NCBI GenBank assembly: GCA_000421325.1
Contig: ATWQ01000009.1
Location: forward strand, 1 to 64,000
Direction: 5' to 3'
Length of the DNA stretch: 64,000 bases
DNA from: an alpha proteobacterium SCGC AAA536-K22
Lineage (GTDB): Bacteria > Pseudomonadota > Alphaproteobacteria > Puniceispirillales > Marisalimonadaceae
The stretch's first letter is position 1. Every line of letters begins with the position of its first letter. The notes under the pieces are model-generated. The model did no database searches. It saw only the letters and a program-made list of their open reading frames with translations, and had not been told where the DNA came from. This document shows, one piece after another, positions 4,242 to 14,644 of the stretch. The position numbers were made by a program, and so were the translations under genes.

Positions 4242-5699
4242 TTATCTTTTAATCATGAATTTAGCACGTATACCTACATTTGATTTTTCAAATGTAAGAC
4301 TGCCAGCATGTTGTTCAGCAATAGTGGAAACAATTGTTAACCCAAGTCCTGTTCCTTTAGTAAATCCAATATTCTGACCTCTAATAAATGGTTTTTTAAG
4401 AGCCTCTAATAATTCTTCTGATATGTTTTTTCCTTCATCTTCTATAATTAAAGTAATTGTTTCTGAAGTAGTTTCTAAGGATAATGTTGCTGTTCTTCCG
4501 TATTTAAGGGCATTGTCAATTAAGTTTGTTATAGCTCTTTGAAGTGACAAAGGCTTTCCTTTTACAAGCAAGTGATAATGTTGGTTAAGTTGAAAAGATT
4601 GGTTTCTTTTATTTCCTGAAAAAACAGAAGTAACTAACCCAATATTTTTTTCTTTAGGTTTTATCAGAGTTACTTTTTTGCCTAAATCTTGATAGTCAAA
4701 TACTATAGATTCAACCAGAGTTATGTATGAAATTTCTATTTCTTCTTCTAAATCCATTTCAGATCTAGTGTAAGAAAGTACGCCATTCATCATATCAATC
4801 ATTTTATCAATGTCAGTTTCTAGTTTCTCCTTTAATTGTTTATCTTCAATAAGTGCAGTTCTTAATTTTAATTTAGTTGCAGGAGTACCAATATCATGAC
4901 TGATTGATGATAAAACCATTAATCTTTTTTCGAGCTTCTCTTTTTGTGAATTTAAAAACATATCTAAGGTATCACTAATTTCAATTAGTTCAGATGGTCC
5001 TTTAATTTTCTCCATTGAATTTTTATTTGTTTTTAGATTATTTTTAAGATTTATAATAAAATTATGAAACTTAATTTCATTTTCTCTTATCAAGAGAAAT
5101 ATAGCTAGTAGGGAAATAATCAAAATGATAATTGATATTAACCTATTATCACTTGGCGCTGATTTACATCCCCATACTTTATTTCCATCAATGCGATACC
5201 AATTACTTTGATCTATTTTTAAAAATAAAATTGGATTGGTACAGTAATTTGCCACTAATTGAATTATTTTACCTAATTGTTGTTCTTTACTAAAATCCTT
5301 AGAAGTTTCAATTTTAGCAAGAGGATATCGCAGTTTAGCTGAAACTATGTGTAAAGATATTTTACCCTGTTGTTCTAATTTTTTTTTATTATCAAAAATT
5401 GATAACGAAGTTATTTTATAAGGTTGAGAAATTTTGGAAAAGGATTCGATTTGATCTTTTGTTATTGTTTCAGTTTTAAAATTAAGTTTTGTAATTTTTA
5501 TTTTTGAATTTATTTCAGTACGGTATTTAATCGTATTGTATATAGATATACCGCTTGAATAAGATTTATCTAAAAAACTATCCCACTTATTTTCTGATGA
5601 AACCCAAATAATAGTCGTTATAACTCCAACAAAGAATGATAAAATAAATAAAAAATAGGTTTGGATAGTGATTGAATTAATTTTCAATAATTTAATCAT
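4242..5699 (-). CDS. Membrane sensor histidine kinase (EnvZ/GtrS type)
   Basis: A 485-aa sensor kinase with two membrane segments (about residues 12-34 and 187-204) flanking a periplasmic region of roughly 150 residues. The dimerisation box SSISHDIGTPATKLKLR holds the phospho-accepting His. The ATP-binding domain shows NLIDNALKYG (N box), IEDEGKNIS (G1) and GTGLGLTIV (G2). The gene overlaps the end of its response regulator by 8 bp. The pair is divergent from a sugar ABC importer followed by zwf-pgl-edd. In Pseudomonas the GtrS/GltR pair sits beside the same set of genes and controls glucose uptake, so a sugar or sugar-acid sensing role is likely by analogy. The periplasmic domain has no motif I recognise. 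Confidence 0.85.
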   Translation of the reverse strand: MIKLLKINSITIQTYFLFILSFFVGVITTIIWVSSENKWDSFLDKSYSSGISIYNTIKYRTEINSKIKITKLNFKTETITKDQIESFSKISQPYKITSLSIFDNKKKLEQQGKISLHIVSAKLRYPLAKIETSKDFSKEQQLGKIIQLVANYCTNPILFLKIDQSNWYRIDGNKVWGCKSAPSDNRLISIIILIISLLAIFLLIRENEIKFHNFIINLKNNLKTNKNSMEKIKGPSELIEISDTLDMFLNSQKEKLEKRLMVLSSISHDIGTPATKLKLRTALIEDKQLKEKLETDIDKMIDMMNGVLSYTRSEMDLEEEIEISYITLVESIVFDYQDLGKKVTLIKPKEKNIGLVTSVFSGNKRNQSFQLNQHYHLLVKGKPLSLQRAITNLIDNALKYGRTATLSLETTSETITLIIEDEGKNISEELLEALKKPFIRGQNIGFTKGTGLGLTIVSTIAEQHAGSLTFEKSNVGIRAKFMIKR

Positions 5700-6432
5700 T
5701 TTTAGCAGTAACTTCTGTGGAAAAAATGTAACCTATACCTCTTTCTGTTTTAATAAGAGAAGGATTTTTTGTATCCTTTTCAATTTTAGTTCTCAGTCTT
5801 CCAACTAAAACATCAATAGCTCTACTTTCAGCTAAGTTAAGTTTTTCTTCTTGCACTCTTGTATCATCAATAGCATTTGCAATTTCTTCTCTGGTTAACA
5901 CTATGTGACTATTAGCAAGAAATACCTTAAGTATTTTAGTCTCTTTTTTAGATAATAAAATTTGGAAGCCTGCTGGAGAAATAATTATATCTTTCTTTCC
6001 ATTATAAAGCCAATCATCAAAATAATAACTATTGGTATTTCTTCTGTATGCAAACGAAGCTATTTTAGTTCCCCTTTTAAGAACAGCTTTAACTTTTGCT
6101 AACAAGATTTTTGGATTAAATGGTTTAGCTATATAATCGTCAGCTCCAACTTCAAAACCAAGTAAACGATCTTGATCAGCTGATAAAGCTGAGACAATTA
6201 TAATAGGTATATTGTTGTCTTTTCGTATTTCTTTACATATTGAAATACCGTTATCATCACCAAGCATTACATCTAATAATATTAAATCTATTCTTTGGGA
6301 ATTAATTTCTTTGGACAATTCAGAAGCATTTTTTGCGGCTGAAACCATATATCCACTTTTCTGCAAGAAAGTGACCATCATTTCTTGCATGTCTGAATCA
6401 TCTTCGACTATTAATATTCTATAAATTGTCAT
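5692..6432 (-). CDS. OmpR-family response regulator (GltR-like position)
   Basis: A 246-aa two-domain regulator. The receiver domain has the acidic pair EDD (residues 10-12), the phospho-acceptor Asp near residue 54 (LILLDVML) and the conserved Lys in AKPFNPK. The C-terminal winged helix ends with the family pattern RTKIEKDTKNPSLIKTERG and GIGYIF. ATG at 6432 is chosen; a TTG at 6447 is also in frame. It probably autoregulates and controls the divergent gts operon: three TAACA repeats 10 bp apart lie at 6470-6494 between the two genes. Neighbour context matches Pseudomonas GltR beside gtsABCD and the Entner-Doudoroff genes, but orthology was not tested. Confidence 0.87.
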   Translation of the reverse strand: MTIYRILIVEDDSDMQEMMVTFLQKSGYMVSAAKNASELSKEINSQRIDLILLDVMLGDDNGISICKEIRKDNNIPIIIVSALSADQDRLLGFEVGADDYIAKPFNPKILLAKVKAVLKRGTKIASFAYRRNTNSYYFDDWLYNGKKDIIISPAGFQILLSKKETKILKVFLANSHIVLTREEIANAIDDTRVQEEKLNLAESRAIDVLVGRLRTKIEKDTKNPSLIKTERGIGYIFSTEVTAKND

Positions 6433-6469
6433 TTTTTTAACTAACAAACTATATAAAATTAAAAACTTT

Positions 6470-6494
6470 TAACATTTAGTAACACAATGTAACA
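6470..6494. promoter_or_regulatory. Three TAACA direct repeats at 10-bp period, candidate response-regulator site
   Basis: TAACA occurs at 6470-6474, 6480-6484 and 6490-6494, exactly one helical turn apart, between the divergent response regulator (start 6432) and the sugar-binding protein gene (start 6602). OmpR-family regulators bind tandem direct repeats with 10- or 11-bp spacing, so this is the natural candidate site. A further TAACA lies at 6442-6446. Binding is inferred, not shown. Confidence 0.55.
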
Positions 6495-6601
6495 GATGAA
6501 TAAAAAAAATTAAGTATTTTGGAGTTTTCAATAATTTGTTTCTTTTCAATTTAATTAGAAATTACTAGGTTTGATTTTTAAAATTTAAATGGGGGAATTA
6601 T

Positions 6602-7849
6602 ATGTTTAAAAAAATAGCCGTTGCAGTAATTGCAACTTCAATTACATTTGCAGTTTCTACATCTTATGCAGGTCCTAAAGCCGAAGTTCTTCATTGGTGG
6701 ACATCTGGAGGCGAAGCTAAGTCAGTAGCTGTTCTTCAAAAAGAGTTTTCCGAAAATGGTGGTTCATGGACTGATATGCCAGTTGCTGGTGGTGGTGGTG
6801 ATGCTGCTATGACAGCTTTAAGAGCAAGAGTTTTATCTGGTAATGCTCCGGCAGCCGTTCAATTAAAGGGTCCGTCTATTCAAGAATGGTATGAAGAAGG
6901 TGCATTAGCTGATATTAGTGCAGTTGCTAAAAAGAACAATTGGTCCAAAGTACTTCCTGTATCAATAGCTGGTCACATGAAATGTGAAGGTAAATGGTGT
7001 GCTGCACCAGTTAATGTTCACAGAATAGACTGGATATGGGCTAATGCATCTGTGCTTTCTTCAAATGGTTTTGGTATGCCAAAAACATGGGACGAATTCA
7101 ATGCTACAGCTAGAGCTTTACAAGCAAAAGGTATTATTCCTTTAGCTCATGGTGGTCAAGCATGGCAAGATGCTACAGTTTTTGAAGCAGTTGCTCTTGG
7201 TATAGGTGGAGCAAACTTCTTTCACGATGCTTTTGTTAAATTAGACAAAAAAGCTTTACAATCAGATACAATGGTTAAAGTTTTTGATCAAATGAGAATT
7301 ATGCGTGGTTTTGTAGATAAAAACTTTTCTGGTAGAGACTGGAACTTAGCTACGGCTATGGTTATGAACGGTGAAGCAGCTTTTCAAATTATGGGTGACT
7401 GGGCTAAAGGAGAATTTTTAGCTGCTGGTAAGGTTCCTGGTAAGGACTTTTTATGTGCATCTACACCTGGTGAAGGATTCCTATACAATGTTGATAGTTT
7501 TGCTATGTTCAAGGTAAAAGGTTCTGAGCGTCAAGATGGTCAAAAGCTTCTTGCAAAACTAATTGTTGGGAAAAACTTTCAAAAAGTATTTAATCTTAAC
7601 AAAGGATCAATTCCTGCAAGAACTGATGTAAGCCTAAATGAATTTGATCATTGCGCACATGTATCTGCAGCCGACATGAATGCAAGTTCTGTTGGAGGTA
7701 CTTTGTTACCTAGTTATGCTCATGGTATGGCATTAAGAGGTGCTCAGGCTGGAGCTATTACAGACACTGTTACAGCACATTTTAATTCAAAAATGTCTTC
7801 AAAAGATGCTGTGGCAATGCTCGTAAAGGCAATTGACAATAGTAAATAA
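6602..7849 (+). CDS. gtsA: Sugar ABC transporter substrate-binding protein (GtsA-like)
   Basis: A 415-aa periplasmic binding protein of the carbohydrate family 1 type. A Sec signal peptide spans about residues 1-23, ending in TSYA before GPKAEVLHWWTSGGE; the WWTSGGEAK segment is characteristic of glucose/mannose-binding GtsA proteins. GGGGGA at 6591-6596 gives a strong ribosome site. It heads an operon of two permeases, an ATPase and zwf-pgl-edd, so glucose or a closely related hexose is the likely ligand. A stem-loop directly after the gene probably holds its transcript at higher level than the membrane components. Confidence 0.85.
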   Translation: MFKKIAVAVIATSITFAVSTSYAGPKAEVLHWWTSGGEAKSVAVLQKEFSENGGSWTDMPVAGGGGDAAMTALRARVLSGNAPAAVQLKGPSIQEWYEEGALADISAVAKKNNWSKVLPVSIAGHMKCEGKWCAAPVNVHRIDWIWANASVLSSNGFGMPKTWDEFNATARALQAKGIIPLAHGGQAWQDATVFEAVALGIGGANFFHDAFVKLDKKALQSDTMVKVFDQMRIMRGFVDKNFSGRDWNLATAMVMNGEAAFQIMGDWAKGEFLAAGKVPGKDFLCASTPGEGFLYNVDSFAMFKVKGSERQDGQKLLAKLIVGKNFQKVFNLNKGSIPARTDVSLNEFDHCAHVSAADMNASSVGGTLLPSYAHGMALRGAQAGAITDTVTAHFNSKMSSKDAVAMLVKAIDNSK

Positions 7850-7859
7850 ATAAAACTTA

Positions 7860-7898
7860 AATAACTGTTCCTATTAAATTTTGGGACAGTTATTTTTT
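7860..7898 (+). terminator. Intercistronic stem-loop with U-tract after the binding-protein gene
   Basis: AATAACTGTTCC (7860-7871) pairs with GGGACAGTTATT (7883-7894) through 12 base pairs including one G-U, with an 11-nt loop and a run of T to 7898. This has the form of a rho-independent terminator placed between gtsA and the permease genes. The downstream genes lack an obvious promoter of their own, so partial termination or 3' protection of the gtsA message is likely. Confidence 0.65.
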
Positions 7899-7908
7899 GG
7901 AACAAACT

Positions 7909-8784
7909 ATGTCAAATTGGCTTGAAAAACATTTACCTAAGATTGTCTTGGGACCGTCGCTTTTTGCAATAATTTTATTTGTATATGGTTTTATCGCATG
8001 GACTGCATGGATATCATTCACTAAATCAAGGCTTATGCCTAAATATGATATTGTTGGTTTTATACAATATAGCAGACTATTTGATTCCCCGAGATGGGAA
8101 GTAGCTATTGATAATTTATTTATTTTTGGATTTTTGTTTATTCTAATTTCAATGTTTTTGGGACTTTTGATTGCAATATTTCTTGATCAAAAGATACGTG
8201 TCGAAGGTGCGTTAAGAACTATTTATTTATACCCAATGGCCTTGTCTTTGATTGTAACTGGCACAGCTTGGAAGTGGATTTTAAATCCAGGTTTAGGTTT
8301 GGAATCGGTTGTTAAAAGTTGGGGGTTTACTGATTTTACATTTGATTGGGTGATAAACCCAGATTTTGCAATTTATACTGTGGTTATTGCTGGAGTTTGG
8401 CAAGCCTCTGGATTTGTGATGGCTCTTTTCTTAGCAGGATTAAGATCTGTTGATCAAGAGATAATTAAGGCAGCTCAAGTGGATGGCGTACCTACTTTTA
8501 AAATTTATACTGCAATAATAATTCCCTCTATGGCACCAATTTTTCTTTCAGCTTTTATAGTTCTAGCTCATTTAGCTATAAAAAGTTTTGATCTCGTTAT
8601 TGCTTTAACAGGTGGTGGCCCGGGATATGCAACAGATCTTCCAGCCACTTATATGTATACAATGGCTTTTTCTCGAGGAGATATAGGTCAAGCAGCAAGC
8701 TCGGCAATTATAATGATGTTGGTAGTTTTTGCAGTGGTTGTTCCTTACTTGTATTCAGAATTAAGGAATAAAAATGATCAATAA
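7909..8784 (+). CDS. gtsB: Sugar ABC transporter permease (GtsB-like)
   Basis: A 291-aa inner-membrane permease with six predicted hydrophobic segments. The cytoplasmic EAA-type loop reads QEIIKAAQVDGVPTFKIYTA, which contacts the ATPase. The ATG at 7909 (MSNWLEKHLP) is preferred to the TTG at 7897. The stop overlaps the start of the second permease by 11 bp (8774-8784), so the pair is translationally coupled. It forms the channel of the sugar importer with the next gene. Downstream of a terminator-like hairpin, so it is probably expressed below the binding protein. Confidence 0.87.
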   Translation: MSNWLEKHLPKIVLGPSLFAIILFVYGFIAWTAWISFTKSRLMPKYDIVGFIQYSRLFDSPRWEVAIDNLFIFGFLFILISMFLGLLIAIFLDQKIRVEGALRTIYLYPMALSLIVTGTAWKWILNPGLGLESVVKSWGFTDFTFDWVINPDFAIYTVVIAGVWQASGFVMALFLAGLRSVDQEIIKAAQVDGVPTFKIYTAIIIPSMAPIFLSAFIVLAHLAIKSFDLVIALTGGGPGYATDLPATYMYTMAFSRGDIGQAASSAIIMMLVVFAVVVPYLYSELRNKNDQ

Positions 8785-9652
8785 TAATTATAAAATTAAC
8801 TACACTAATGTAATTTTAAGAATGTTGTTGTATTTTTTCTTATCTGTATTTGTATTGTACTATCTTCTCCCATTATTTGTAATGGTAACAACATCTTTAA
8901 AAAGTTTAGAGGAAATTAGAACTGGAAGTTTAGTCGCTTTACCTAGAAACATTACTTTTGAAGCTTGGGGTACAGCTTGGTCTTCTGCATGCACTGGTAT
9001 TCAGTGTGAGGGGTTAAAACCTTATTTTTGGAACTCAATTTTAATAGCGATCCCTGCTGTTTTTATTTCAACTTTGATAGGTGCATTAAATGGTTATGTT
9101 GTTGCACAATGGCGATTTAAAGGAGCAAACATAATTTTTGCATTAATGTTATTTGGTTGTTTCATTCCTTTTCAAGTTGTTCTACTGCCGATGGCTAGGG
9201 TATTAGGATTAATGGATTTAGCTGGTAGTATTATAGGCTTAATTTTTGTTCACGTAATCTACGGTATTGGTTTTACAACACTTTTTTTTAGAAATTATTA
9301 TGTAAATATTCCGAGCGAATTAGTTAAAGCTGCTAAAATGGATGGAGCTACGTTCTTAAGAATATTTTGGTCTATTTTTCTTCCTCTATCTTTACCAATA
9401 ATAGTCGTAACAATTATTTGGCAATTTACTCAGATATGGAATGATTTTTTATTTGGAGTTTCATTTAGCGAGGCTGGAACACAACCTATAACAGTAGCTC
9501 TTAATAATATAGTGAACTCTACAACTGGAGTAAAGGAGTATAATGTTGATATGGCTGCAGCTATTATTGCGGCTATGCCTACCTTGTTGGTCTATATATT
9601 TGCTGGAAAATATTTTATACGTGGTTTAACTGCAGGATCTGTAAAGGGATAA
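8774..9652 (+). CDS. gtsC: Sugar ABC transporter permease (GtsC-like)
   Basis: A 292-aa inner-membrane permease of the MalG type with six hydrophobic segments. The EAA loop is SELVKAAKMDGATFLRIFW. The large periplasmic loop after the first membrane helix (about residues 45-85) contains two Cys residues (SACTGIQCEG) that could form a disulfide. It overlaps the upstream permease gene by 11 bp and is 3 bp from the ATPase gene. It completes the heterodimeric channel for the hexose importer. Confidence 0.87.
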   Translation: MINNNYKINYTNVILRMLLYFFLSVFVLYYLLPLFVMVTTSLKSLEEIRTGSLVALPRNITFEAWGTAWSSACTGIQCEGLKPYFWNSILIAIPAVFISTLIGALNGYVVAQWRFKGANIIFALMLFGCFIPFQVVLLPMARVLGLMDLAGSIIGLIFVHVIYGIGFTTLFFRNYYVNIPSELVKAAKMDGATFLRIFWSIFLPLSLPIIVVTIIWQFTQIWNDFLFGVSFSEAGTQPITVALNNIVNSTTGVKEYNVDMAAAIIAAMPTLLVYIFAGKYFIRGLTAGSVKG

Positions 9653-9655
9653 ATA

Positions 9656-10750
9656 ATGTCATCTATTTTAAAAATAAAAGATGTTAACAAAAAGTTTGGA
9701 AAAATTTCTGTCTTAAATGACATAAACATAAATATAGATAAAGGAGACTTTCTAGTTTTAGTAGGTCCTTCTGGGTGTGGAAAATCAACTCTTTTGAACT
9801 GTATAGCAGGTTTAGAGAAAATTAATGGTGGAGAAATCTTTATAAATAATAAAGATATGTCTGAAGTAGCTCCTAAAGATAGAGATATAGCTATGGTATT
9901 TCAGTCATATGCACTTTATCCAACTATGACAGTTGAGAAGAATATTACTTTTGGAATGAAAGTTAGAGGAACATCTGAAGAAATTCAAAAAGAAAAATTA
10001 AATGAAGTTGCTAAGCAATTACAAATTGAAAGTCTACTTAAAAGAAAACCCGGGCAATTATCGGGTGGTCAAAGACAAAGAGTTGCAATGGGAAGAGCAT
10101 TAGTGAGAAATCCGAAGCTTTTTTTATTTGATGAACCTTTATCAAACCTTGACGCTAAATTACGAGTTGAAATGAGAACAGAAATAAAACGTCTTCATTA
10201 TGATTTAGGGGCTTCAATGGTTTATGTCACTCATGACCAAATTGAAGCAATGACATTAGCTACAAAAATAGTAGTAATGAAAGATGGTTTTATTCAACAG
10301 ATTGGAACACCCGCTGAAATCTACAATTATCCAGAAAATATATTTGTAGCAGATTTCATGGGCTCTCCTCCAATGAACCTGATAAATGCAACTGCTCAAA
10401 AAGAAAAAGATTATTATAAAATTAATATTAAAATGGAAGATGGATCTATTTCGACCTTAAAAGAAAAAAATAAAAGCAAGTTACCACACGAATTAATTAT
10501 AGGTATTAGACCTGAAAATATTACTGAGAATGGATTAAAAAATAAGCAAAGCTCTCAAGTTATTTCATCAAATATTGACATAATAGAGCCCGCAGGATCA
10601 GATACATTTGTAATGACCAAACTTGGTAATACTGAGGTTACAGCTAGATTTCATTCTGAAACAAAAGTAAAGGTTGGCTCAAAAGTTAATCTTTTAATAG
10701 ATCTAGATAAAGCTTCTTATTTTGATCCTAACTCTGGACAGAGAATATAA
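9656..10750 (+). CDS. gtsD: Sugar ABC transporter ATP-binding protein (MalK/UgpC family)
   Basis: A 364-aa ATPase. Walker A is GPSGCGKST, the signature is LSGGQRQR, Walker B is LFLFDEPLSNLD and the switch His is in VYVTHDQIEA. The C-terminal 120 residues form the MalK-type OB-fold regulatory region (GIRPENI near residue 285). AAGGGA before the ATG is a good ribosome site. It energises the importer encoded just upstream and is followed after 12 bp by zwf, so uptake and first metabolic steps are co-expressed. Confidence 0.9.
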   Translation: MSSILKIKDVNKKFGKISVLNDININIDKGDFLVLVGPSGCGKSTLLNCIAGLEKINGGEIFINNKDMSEVAPKDRDIAMVFQSYALYPTMTVEKNITFGMKVRGTSEEIQKEKLNEVAKQLQIESLLKRKPGQLSGGQRQRVAMGRALVRNPKLFLFDEPLSNLDAKLRVEMRTEIKRLHYDLGASMVYVTHDQIEAMTLATKIVVMKDGFIQQIGTPAEIYNYPENIFVADFMGSPPMNLINATAQKEKDYYKINIKMEDGSISTLKEKNKSKLPHELIIGIRPENITENGLKNKQSSQVISSNIDIIEPAGSDTFVMTKLGNTEVTARFHSETKVKVGSKVNLLIDLDKASYFDPNSGQRI

Positions 10751-10762
10751 TAGTATTTTGAA

Positions 10763-12214
10763 ATGAAACAAAAAATACCAGAAACAGCTAATATTATACC
10801 TAGTGACTTTGTAATTATAGGTGGAACAGGTCATTTGTCTGTAAGAAAAATTCTTCCAGCTTTATTTTGGAGATTTTTAGATAAACAAATTGATAAAAAT
10901 TCTCAAATTATATTATGTGATAGAAACATAAAATCACCAAGTGAGTTTTTTGATAATTTAAAACAACATTGTTCTGAAGCCATTAAAAAAGACAAAAATA
11001 ATAAGATCATTTGGGAACAATTTTTATCTATTATAAAAATAATTGAATTAGACGTTGTTTCCGGTGAGGGCCATTTAGAATTATTAGAGATATTAAAAGC
11101 AAATTTCGATGAAAAAAGACCTATAATATTTTACTTAGCCATAGCTTCAAGTTTATTTGGAAATAGTTGCAAATTTATTAGAGATTCCGGTTTAAATGTT
11201 CCACAAAGTAGACTTGTAATTGAAAAGCCTATTGGAAAAAATAAAGAGACTGCAATAGAAATCAATAACGAAATTTCGAGTATCTTTAAAGAAAGTCAAA
11301 TTTATAGAATTGATCATTATTTAGGAAAAGAAACTGTCCAAAATTTAATGGCTTTAAGATTTGCAAATACATTTTTTGAAAATCAGTGGAATAATAATAA
11401 TATTGATCATGTTCAGATAACTGTTTCTGAAACAATAGGAGTTAAGGAAAGGATTGCTTATTATAATGAATATGGTGCCATCAGAGATATGTTACAAAAT
11501 CATTTGCTACAATTGATTTGTTTAATAGCAATGGAGCCTCCATCCTTTTATGAAGCAGACCAAATGAGAGATGAAAAGCTAAGAGTTTTAAAAGCATTGA
11601 AACCAATAGCTGAAAATGAAATACAGACTGGTCAATATAGAAGCTTTTCTGATGAATTAGAAGAAATTTCTAACACTGAAACTTATGTGGCTTTAAAGGT
11701 TATGATCAACAATTGGCGTTGGGCGGGAGTACCCTTTTATATAAGGACTGGTAAGAAACTATCTACCAAAGCAAGTGAAATTATAATTACATTCAAAAAA
11801 AAGCCTCATGATATTTTTTCAAAATTTACTCAAGATACACAAGACAATCCAAATAGATTAATAATAAGAGTTCAACCAGAAGAAGGTTTAAAACTTAAAT
11901 TAACTTCAAAAGCTCCTGGTCCTGGAGGAATGCGTTTTTTCCCATCAGAGCTTAATTTGTCGTTTGGGGATACATTCTCAGATAGACTTCCAGATGCATA
12001 TGAACGATTGCTTATGGATGTTGTTAGAGGAAATCAAACATTATTTATGAGATCAGACGAAGTTTTAGCGGCTTGGGATTACATAGATCCAATTGTTGGT
12101 ATAGCAAAAAAACAAGAACCACAATTATATCGAACTGGAACTATGGGTCCGGAGGATAAAATCTTATCTCTAGATGGGCATAAATGGATTGATCCAAAAG
12201 ATGAACTAAAATGA
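10763..12214 (+). CDS. zwf: Glucose-6-phosphate 1-dehydrogenase
   Basis: A 483-aa enzyme oxidising glucose-6-phosphate to 6-phosphogluconolactone with NAD(P)+. The active-site motif RIDHYLGKE (near residues 182-190) holds the catalytic His and substrate Lys, and IEKPIGK is the cofactor-side motif. The N-terminal nucleotide loop reads GGTGHLSVRKILPA, with His where most family members have Asp (GDL). It is the first of three Entner-Doudoroff genes joined by overlaps (ATGA with pgl). No glucokinase gene was seen in the window. Confidence 0.92.
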   Translation: MKQKIPETANIIPSDFVIIGGTGHLSVRKILPALFWRFLDKQIDKNSQIILCDRNIKSPSEFFDNLKQHCSEAIKKDKNNKIIWEQFLSIIKIIELDVVSGEGHLELLEILKANFDEKRPIIFYLAIASSLFGNSCKFIRDSGLNVPQSRLVIEKPIGKNKETAIEINNEISSIFKESQIYRIDHYLGKETVQNLMALRFANTFFENQWNNNNIDHVQITVSETIGVKERIAYYNEYGAIRDMLQNHLLQLICLIAMEPPSFYEADQMRDEKLRVLKALKPIAENEIQTGQYRSFSDELEEISNTETYVALKVMINNWRWAGVPFYIRTGKKLSTKASEIIITFKKKPHDIFSKFTQDTQDNPNRLIIRVQPEEGLKLKLTSKAPGPGGMRFFPSELNLSFGDTFSDRLPDAYERLLMDVVRGNQTLFMRSDEVLAAWDYIDPIVGIAKKQEPQLYRTGTMGPEDKILSLDGHKWIDPKDELK

Positions 12215-12828
12215 GTGTTGTAAAATTAATCGCTGACAAATTAAATTCTTCAATTAAAAAAACAGGATTAGCAAGTTTAGTTGTTTCTGGTGGAAGTAGT
12301 CCCATAAAAATTTTTGATGAATTATCAAATACTGATGTTTCTTGGTCTAATGTTCAAGTTACTTTAGTGGATGATAGATTAGTAGATTCCAAAAACTCCA
12401 ATAGTAACCAAAAGTTATTACAAGATAATCTTTTAAAAAACAAAGCTAAAAGTGCTAATTTTTTTCCTTTATCTGAGGATTTAATATTTAACAATAAATT
12501 TAAAATACCTTTTGACGTCAATTTACTTGGAATGGGAGAAGATGGTCATTTTGCTTCTTTATTTCCCCAAATGCTTACTGATCAAGATGCCTTTAGTAGA
12601 AATGCAGATTTCAAAATTTTTAAAACATTACCACAAGGTGATCCTTTTCTTCCAAGAATAACTATGAATTTGTCCTTAATCTTAAGTAGTGAATTTATAA
12701 TTCTATTAGTTAAAGGAAAAGCAAAACAGAATATTTTAGATATTTCTAAAAATGATGAAAAATATCCTATTCATCATTTATTAAAAAATAGAAAAAATGA
12801 TTTTTTGATTGAGAAAATTAATGAATAA
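12211..12828 (+). CDS. pgl: 6-phosphogluconolactonase
   Basis: A 205-aa, slightly short member of the DevB/SOL lactonase family that hydrolyses 6-phosphogluconolactone to 6-phosphogluconate. VVSGGSSPIKIF near the N-terminus is the phosphate-binding loop and NLLGMGEDGHFASLFP is the family signature. The start overlaps the zwf stop by 4 bp and the end overlaps edd by 8 bp, so the three enzymes are translationally coupled. It acts in the cytoplasm between Zwf and Edd. Confidence 0.9.
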   Translation: MSVVKLIADKLNSSIKKTGLASLVVSGGSSPIKIFDELSNTDVSWSNVQVTLVDDRLVDSKNSNSNQKLLQDNLLKNKAKSANFFPLSEDLIFNNKFKIPFDVNLLGMGEDGHFASLFPQMLTDQDAFSRNADFKIFKTLPQGDPFLPRITMNLSLILSSEFIILLVKGKAKQNILDISKNDEKYPIHHLLKNRKNDFLIEKINE

Positions 12829-14644
12829 ATTACACCCTAAAATTATTGAAGTTACAAAAAGGATAAGAAAAAGAAGTAAGCCTTCTAGAGATATTTATTT
12901 AAAAAACCTTGTTGCTATGGAACAGGACAGGGATAATGACAGAAATCTAATTTCTTGTTCTAACATGGCACATGCAGCTGCAGCTGCACCTTCTGATGAA
13001 AAATCAGCAATATTAAATAATTCTAAACCCAATCTAGGTATTGTGTCATCTTATAATGATATGTTATCGGCTCATAAACCTTTAGAGCAATTCCCAAAAG
13101 TAATTAAAGCTGCGGCAAATCAATTTGGTGCAACTGCGCAGATGGCAGGAAGTGTGCCAGCTATGTGCGACGGTGTAACTCAAGGAAGACCAGGTATGGA
13201 ACTTTCACTAATGTCCAGGGATGTTATAGCTATGTCTACAGCAGTTGCACTAAGTCATGGCGTGTATGATGCAACTTTGTGTTTAGGAGTATGTGATAAA
13301 ATTGTTCCTGGTCTTTTTATTGGTGCTATGACCTTTGGTCATTTGCCTACAATTTTTGTCCCAGCTGGTCCAATGTCAAGTGGTATCCCAAATGAAGAAA
13401 AAGTAATTGTTAGAAAAGCTTTTGCAAAAGGAGAGGCAACAAGAAAAGAATTACTCAAGGCTGAAATTTCTGCTTATCATGGTGAAGGAACATGTACTTT
13501 TTATGGAACTGCAAATTCAAATCAAATGTTAATGGAAATAATGGGACTTCATATTCCAGGATCAGCATTTGTTCATCCTCATAGTGATTTAAGAAATGCT
13601 TATAATATAATTGCAACAGAACAAGCTATTTCAATATCAAGAAAAGGAAAAGATGTAAGGTCAATAGGTAGAATGATTGACGAAAGAAGTTTTGTTAATG
13701 CAATTATTGGGTTGCATGCTACTGGAGGTTCAACAAACCATACACTACATTTACCAGCAATGGCAGCTGCTGCAGGAATAAAATTATTATGGGAGGACTT
13801 TGCAGATTTATCTGATGTTGTTCCTTTACTTGCAAAAATCTATCCTAATGGAAGTGCAGATGTGAATCAATTTCATGCAGCAGGTGGAATGAGTTTTTTA
13901 ATCGGAGAACTTTTGGAAGAAGGATTACTTGATGGTACGGCTCTTACTGTATGGGGAAAAAATTTATTTGATTATGTCTTGGAACCAACTTTGAAAGATA
14001 ATAAATTAGTTTGGAATAAACCTAATTTAAAATCATATGATAAAAATATTTTAAGACATGTAAGAGAACCACACCAAAAAAATGGTGGGTTAAAAATATT
14101 ACAAGGCAATATTGGTAAAGGTGTAATTAAAATCTCAGCCGTTGAATTGCATCACCAAAAAATTAAAGCCTCTGCAATGGTTTTTGATAACCAAAATGAT
14201 GTTAAAATAGCGTATGAGAAGGGGTTGTTAAACAGAGATATTATAATTGTAGTTCGTTTCCAAGGACCAAAAGCTAATGGCATGCCCGAACTTCATGCTT
14301 TATCACCGATATTGTCTAATATCCAAGATTTAGGATTTAAGGTGGGGTTACTTACTGATGGAAGAATGTCAGGGGCTTCAGGAAAAGTGCCAGCTGCTAT
14401 TCATATTACACCTGAAGCAACTGATAATGGTAATATTGGAAAAATTAAAAATGGTGATGAAATAGAAATTGATGCTATTGCTGGAAAAATTAATGTTAAT
14501 AAAGAAATTGACAATAGAGAGTTAATTTTTCCAAAAAACTCCGATCATCATAGTGGATTTGGTCGAAACTTATTTGCAATATTAAGAAAAAATGCGGCTG
14601 GCGCAGAAAATGGCGCAGGATTAGATTTAATTAATAGTAATTAA
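12821..14644 (+). CDS. edd: Phosphogluconate dehydratase (Entner-Doudoroff)
   Basis: A 607-aa IlvD/Edd-family dehydratase converting 6-phosphogluconate to KDPG. Cluster-ligand cysteines are seen in PAMCDGVTQG, LCLGVCDKIVPG and GEGTCTFYGTANSN, and the C-terminal LTDGRMSGASGKVPAAIH is typical of Edd. The ATG at 12821 overlaps the pgl stop by 8 bp; an upstream TTG at 12809 is less likely. The aldolase that should follow (Eda) is not next door but at 41496. The gene ends 5 bp from a convergent amidohydrolase gene without a clear terminator. Confidence 0.93.
   Translation: MNKLHPKIIEVTKRIRKRSKPSRDIYLKNLVAMEQDRDNDRNLISCSNMAHAAAAAPSDEKSAILNNSKPNLGIVSSYNDMLSAHKPLEQFPKVIKAAANQFGATAQMAGSVPAMCDGVTQGRPGMELSLMSRDVIAMSTAVALSHGVYDATLCLGVCDKIVPGLFIGAMTFGHLPTIFVPAGPMSSGIPNEEKVIVRKAFAKGEATRKELLKAEISAYHGEGTCTFYGTANSNQMLMEIMGLHIPGSAFVHPHSDLRNAYNIIATEQAISISRKGKDVRSIGRMIDERSFVNAIIGLHATGGSTNHTLHLPAMAAAAGIKLLWEDFADLSDVVPLLAKIYPNGSADVNQFHAAGGMSFLIGELLEEGLLDGTALTVWGKNLFDYVLEPTLKDNKLVWNKPNLKSYDKNILRHVREPHQKNGGLKILQGNIGKGVIKISAVELHHQKIKASAMVFDNQNDVKIAYEKGLLNRDIIIVVRFQGPKANGMPELHALSPILSNIQDLGFKVGLLTDGRMSGASGKVPAAIHITPEATDNGNIGKIKNGDEIEIDAIAGKINVNKEIDNRELIFPKNSDHHSGFGRNLFAILRKNAAGAENGAGLDLINSN

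Follow-up and report, generated by a model that had tools for sequence, protein, structure and literature searches.

The window, by which we mean the whole 64,000-nucleotide stretch of DNA analysed here (G+C content about 28–36%), carries a two-component system and a sugar importer in divergent orientation (Table 1). The response regulator joins a receiver to a Trans_reg_C winged-helix output domain, the domain composition of the OmpR/PhoB family, and its sensor kinase has EnvZ as the best NCBIfam match (117.6 bits, under the cut-off of 415). On the other side of the gap the importer genes are followed closely by zwf, pgl and edd, with which they are probably transcribed together, judging from the gene arrangement. 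Because of these three genes and of the structural matches of the gtsA-like binding protein, the imported sugar is likely to be glucose. A 13-bp hairpin with a T run behind it (7859–7895; −15.3 kcal/mol, z −4.7) separates gtsA from the first permease gene and is perhaps a partial terminator or a protector of the RNA end that lifts binding-protein levels over those of the permeases.

Table 1 Features of the regulator–importer locus, in positions of the window.
Feature	Position	Strand	Evidence or remark
Sensor histidine kinase	4242..5699	-	Pfam HATPase_c
Response regulator, receiver + winged-helix output domain, OmpR family	5692..6432	-	Pfam PF00072, PF00486
Third TAACA repeat, in phase, unconserved	6470..6474	+	1 of 53 loci
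Conserved box (putative operator) GTAACACAATGTAACA, two head-to-tail half-sites, 10-bp period	6479..6494	+	Pair at all 53 loci, with no more than 1 mismatch
Candidate -35 of the gts promoter, TTGTTT	6536..6541	+	42 nt past the box; 3 of the 4 genus loci have TTG at +42
Likely gtsA ribosome-binding site, GGGGG	6591..6595	+	Read from the sequence
gtsA-like sugar-binding protein	6602..7849	+	Best PDB matches 8hqq, 4r2b, 5dvf (ABC sugar-binding proteins); weaker 2b3b (glucose-binding protein)
Importer: two permease genes and ATPase gene	7909..10750	+	Pfam BPD_transp_1 twice, ABC_tran
zwf, pgl, edd	10763..14644	+	NCBIfam TIGR00871, TIGR01198, TIGR01196, above cut-off

The 169-bp gap between the start codons of the regulator (ATG at 6432, minus strand) and gtsA (ATG at 6602, plus strand) holds TAACA at 6470, 6480 and 6490, and we confirm from the sequence the exact 10-bp period on which the original prediction was built. 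The exact triple occurs a single time in the 2.0-Mb genome (assembly 79.8% complete) and its backward control not once, with an expectation under independence of 0.0005 per 64 kb and 0.015 per 2 Mb. Mononucleotide shuffling of the intergenic region produced it in 0 of 20,000 trials, and any 5-mer (of at least three letters) tripled at any period from 8 to 14 appeared in 6 of 3,000 shuffles. Triples with up to three mismatches number 6 in the window against 8.1 expected, which is chance level, and the exact form is therefore the only remarkable one.

Across relatives, the conserved unit is the two-repeat box GTAACA-N4-GTAACA at 6479–6494. A search for the regulator returned orthologues in 4 of 40 genomes of the genus, the window's own included, and close orthologues also in 9 genomes from other families of the same order and, among the matches listed (best 80 loci), in at least 22 named Rhodobacteraceae-type loci. 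Intergenic regions were read at 32 non-duplicate loci and later at 21 more, 53 in total; excluded from the counts were L049 (intergenic region identical to L009), L065 (near copy of L050), L219 and L225 (duplicates of L033 and L043) and L011, whose contig stops short of the binding-protein gene. Another contig of the L011 genome (L138) carries the box with one mismatch. Upstream of the window-type regulator, GTAAC-N5-GTAAC is present with at most one mismatch at all 53 loci, G+C-rich ones included, whereas the TAACA triple, exact or with one mismatch, is found at the window's locus alone. Half-sites spaced by 10 give 0–1 mismatches of 12 in 30 of 34 loci and 2 in the other 4; every other spacing from 6 to 16 reaches 0–1 mismatches in at most one of these loci. 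Of the 32 loci read first, 20 have another pair 30 bp further upstream (half-sites at 0, 10, 30 and 40), and all four members of the window's genus that have the regulator carry a single box. Relatives with both genes thus keep the pair and its 10-bp phase, and lose the repeat at 6470 even within the genus, where it is missing from the three other genomes that have both genes.

The occurrence of the pair follows that of the regulator. The 350 bp upstream of related binding-protein genes that do not have the regulator beside them lack such a pair in 12 of 12 cases (best 3–5 mismatches of 12 on either strand); four of these control genes are from relatives and eight from Gammaproteobacteria, where the upstream stretch is partly kinase gene. 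Upstream of the eight gammaproteobacterial regulators the best pairs have 2–4 mismatches, the value of 2 belonging to L063, before its own regulator. Among the 36 of 40 genus genomes without the regulator, the pattern matches in 5, in every case within a mechanical reading frame and never outside one. Of 13 Rhodobacteraceae-type genomes, 10 have the strict pattern a single time, always at the gts site, and the other 3, whose gts boxes are off by one letter, do not have it; its backward control gives 3 matches in the same 13 genomes. The looser GTAAYA-N4-GTAAYA matches at one more place in the window's own genome, within a reading frame, compared with 6 matches for the backward control, and therefore no regulon beyond gts is supported. 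Presence at 53 of 53 loci beside the regulator and at 0 of 12 without it links the putative operator to the adjacent OmpR-family regulator. The earlier proposal of an OmpR-family site for this regulator thereby gains a probable head-to-tail operator with half-sites about one helical turn apart, as is characteristic of the OmpR/PhoB family, and loses the idea that all three repeats make up the site.

Similar operators are known from Escherichia coli. The OmpR binding repeat, GTTACATTTTGTTACAT (PMC5438342, available part), has two units 10 bp apart, and the window's box read on the minus strand, GTTACATTGTGTTACT, agrees with it at 14 of 16 letters; the best match to 15 letters of the repeat over the 53 loci has 1 mismatch in 5, 2 in 15, 3 in 25, 4 in 7 and 5 in 1. 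The RstA box, TACATNTNGTTACA, consists of tandem TACA half-sites 10 bp apart that bind a head-to-tail dimer on one face (PMC4117788, available part), and the window's box has the same tandem TACA spacing. However, the window's regulator is 33% identical to OmpR and just 27% to RstA, it scores 176.7 bits against a curated cut-off of 331 for OmpR proper, and the likely target of its system is a sugar importer, with no wider regulon seen in its own genome.

The label 'GltR-like', which the original prediction gave to the regulator, is not supported. The GtrS–GltR system of Pseudomonas aeruginosa shares with the window's system the two-component control of glucose transport and catabolism, but GltR is described in the accessible part of PMC4081096 as a repressor with the operator tgGTTTTTc, which is unconserved at the locus (the best match differs by 2 letters in the window and, over all 53 loci, by 1 letter in 2, by 2 in 27 and by 3 in 24). 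In a tree that does not contain P. aeruginosa GltR, the regulator falls in a clade to itself with a long stem (100/100), apart from eight gammaproteobacterial regulators beside glucose-type binding proteins. Given the other operator and the repressor mode of GltR, the window's regulator would act like a local OmpR-type activator and not demonstrably as a GltR. The eight gammaproteobacterial clusters (L058, L062, L063, L067, L070, L071, L075 and L077, from Aeromonas, Psychromonas, Vibrio and Photobacterium) likewise place a regulator and a kinase beside the binding protein, but have all genes on one strand and no GTAACA pair before the binding protein; their separate regulator clade suggests more than one origin of two-component control for importers of this type. 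ChvI and BvrR were set aside as parallels, as the available parts of PMC3687685 and PMC9491525 spell out no motif to compare.

Downstream of the box, the distance to a −35-like TTG is nearly fixed. Of 28 loci outside the genus, 26 show a distance of 49–50 nt and the other 2 one of exactly 40 nt; an offset of 50 is common to 17 of 20 Rhodobacteraceae-type loci, whereas any one offset was shared by at most 5 in 2,000 shuffles. The offsets 40, 49 and 50 were fixed as a prediction before a further 21 loci were examined (23 loci found in one family, represented by 248 genomes, less two duplicates). All 21 show the divergent arrangement and the box, and TTG stands at a predicted offset in 18 (13 at 50, 5 at 40) and at 51 in two, while L220 has no TTG at the expected positions; 5,000 shuffles of these loci gave at most 5 at the predicted offsets, a control that does not remove kinship. 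The spacer between box and promoter is itself divergent (median ungapped identity 34%, range 18–77%). The 40-nt loci are L035, L052, L228, L231, L235, L238 and L241, six of them with a single box and only L228 with a double one, and spacing class and box number may be linked. The offset of 42 nt in three of the four related genus sequences (L004 has no TTG there) belongs to neither class. A consensus promoter scan did not select TTGTTT in the window, and no good −10 follows it. Over 6300–6750 the scan gave one match compared with 2.3 in shuffles, which is chance level, and its sole match in the gap (6556–6584), located elsewhere than the candidate −35, was rejected. A −35 hexamer starts near −36, and the box centre would therefore lie at about −94 in the 50-nt class, −84 in the 40-nt class and −85 in the window.

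A box of this form also stands before another gene in a sister genus (g2, L175–L185), where GTAACA-N4-GTAACA lies 10–13 nt before the start codon of pckA, which encodes an ATP-type PEP carboxykinase; it is exact in 8 of 11 loci and has two mismatches in 3. The genomes of this genus are without the window's regulator, and other regulators may read the box too. For the comparison, loci were taken from 30 of the 78 genomes having pckA, and upstream of the gene at 19 loci of other genera, among them that of the window's genome, pairs on that strand have 4–6 mismatches at best (start or upstream region poorly placed in L187 and L203). As a second target in the window's own genome pckA was discarded, there being no box at L194, where the closest pair has 5 mismatches on that strand and 4 on the other. 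In E. coli K-12 pck adjoins envZ–ompR (L216:2819-6585), which makes an OmpR-like box at the sister-genus pckA curious.

Several other explanations of the repeats have to be weighed. A chance pattern would suit the A+T-rich window and the chance level of its loose matches, but it has next to no probability given that the pair is kept at every locus, in G+C-rich DNA too, and that shuffled intergenic regions attain 0–2 mismatches in 1.7%. Chance is refuted for the pair; the third repeat alone might still owe its presence to it. That all three repeats form a functional three-unit site is quite improbable: the exact phase and the low chance expectation of the triple speak for it, but its presence at 1 of 53 loci and absence from three congeners with both genes rule out a general role of the third repeat in the site. 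At most, that repeat is a weak or recently gained extra half-site.

It is unlikely, though less so, that the box is the regulator's operator but represses gts, as a GltR-like protein released on phosphorylation would, or mainly autoregulates the regulator gene. GltR represses its own targets (PMC4081096, available part), and in the window the box is just 46 nt from the regulator start and may therefore overlap the regulator promoter. Across loci, however, this distance spans 46–178 nt, with a standard deviation of 25.3 against 2.5 for the distance to the importer TTG (n = 28), and the site would lie far upstream of gts, an unusual place for a repressor. To touch RNA polymerase, an activator has to sit at a constant upstream position or one turn away from it, while a repressor more often overlaps the promoter; activation of gts is therefore favoured. 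We also regard it as very improbable that a paralogous OmpR-family regulator reads the box and the adjacent one does not. The pckA box in a genus without this regulator implies that another protein can probably read the same code, yet the gts box accompanies the adjacent regulator and is absent without it, and in congeners devoid of the regulator all matches fall within reading frames.

The explanation that we prefer, and hold to be probable on the comparative evidence, is that the adjacent two-component system has its operator within the repeats, from which a phosphorylated OmpR-family dimer would activate gts and probably zwf–pgl–edd. The kinase, triggered perhaps by the sugar or by the loaded binding protein, would phosphorylate the response regulator, and two regulator molecules would bind head-to-tail on the GTAACA half-sites, one helical turn apart. 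The bound dimer would activate the gts promoter from about −85 in the window, or about −95, and read-through from gts would probably switch on zwf–pgl–edd. With the box near the regulator's own start, some tuning of regulator expression is conceivable.

The available portions of the open-licence literature returned no study of the window's regulator. The locus is a well-supported further example of an already known kind of gene switch. We give about even credence to a wider proposal, namely an apparently undescribed OmpR-like two-component system of marine Alphaproteobacteria that is independent of GltR and has the glucose importer and Entner–Doudoroff operon as its single target. Its operator would lie mostly 50 or 40 nt before the −35, positions one helical turn apart, and come in two architectures, with a single dimer box or with two that are 30 bp apart, and Roseobacter-type genomes and an A+T-rich lineage would keep the switch although the DNA from box to promoter has diverged. 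Together, the operator, its distance to the promoter and its target give a testable case of sugar-uptake gating in some marine Alphaproteobacteria, and the bimodality of 40 and 50 nt amounts to a natural experiment on how an OmpR-family activator depends on helical phasing. The findings also suggest that unrelated two-component systems, the window's and GtrS–GltR, took over the same type of importer with different DNA codes.
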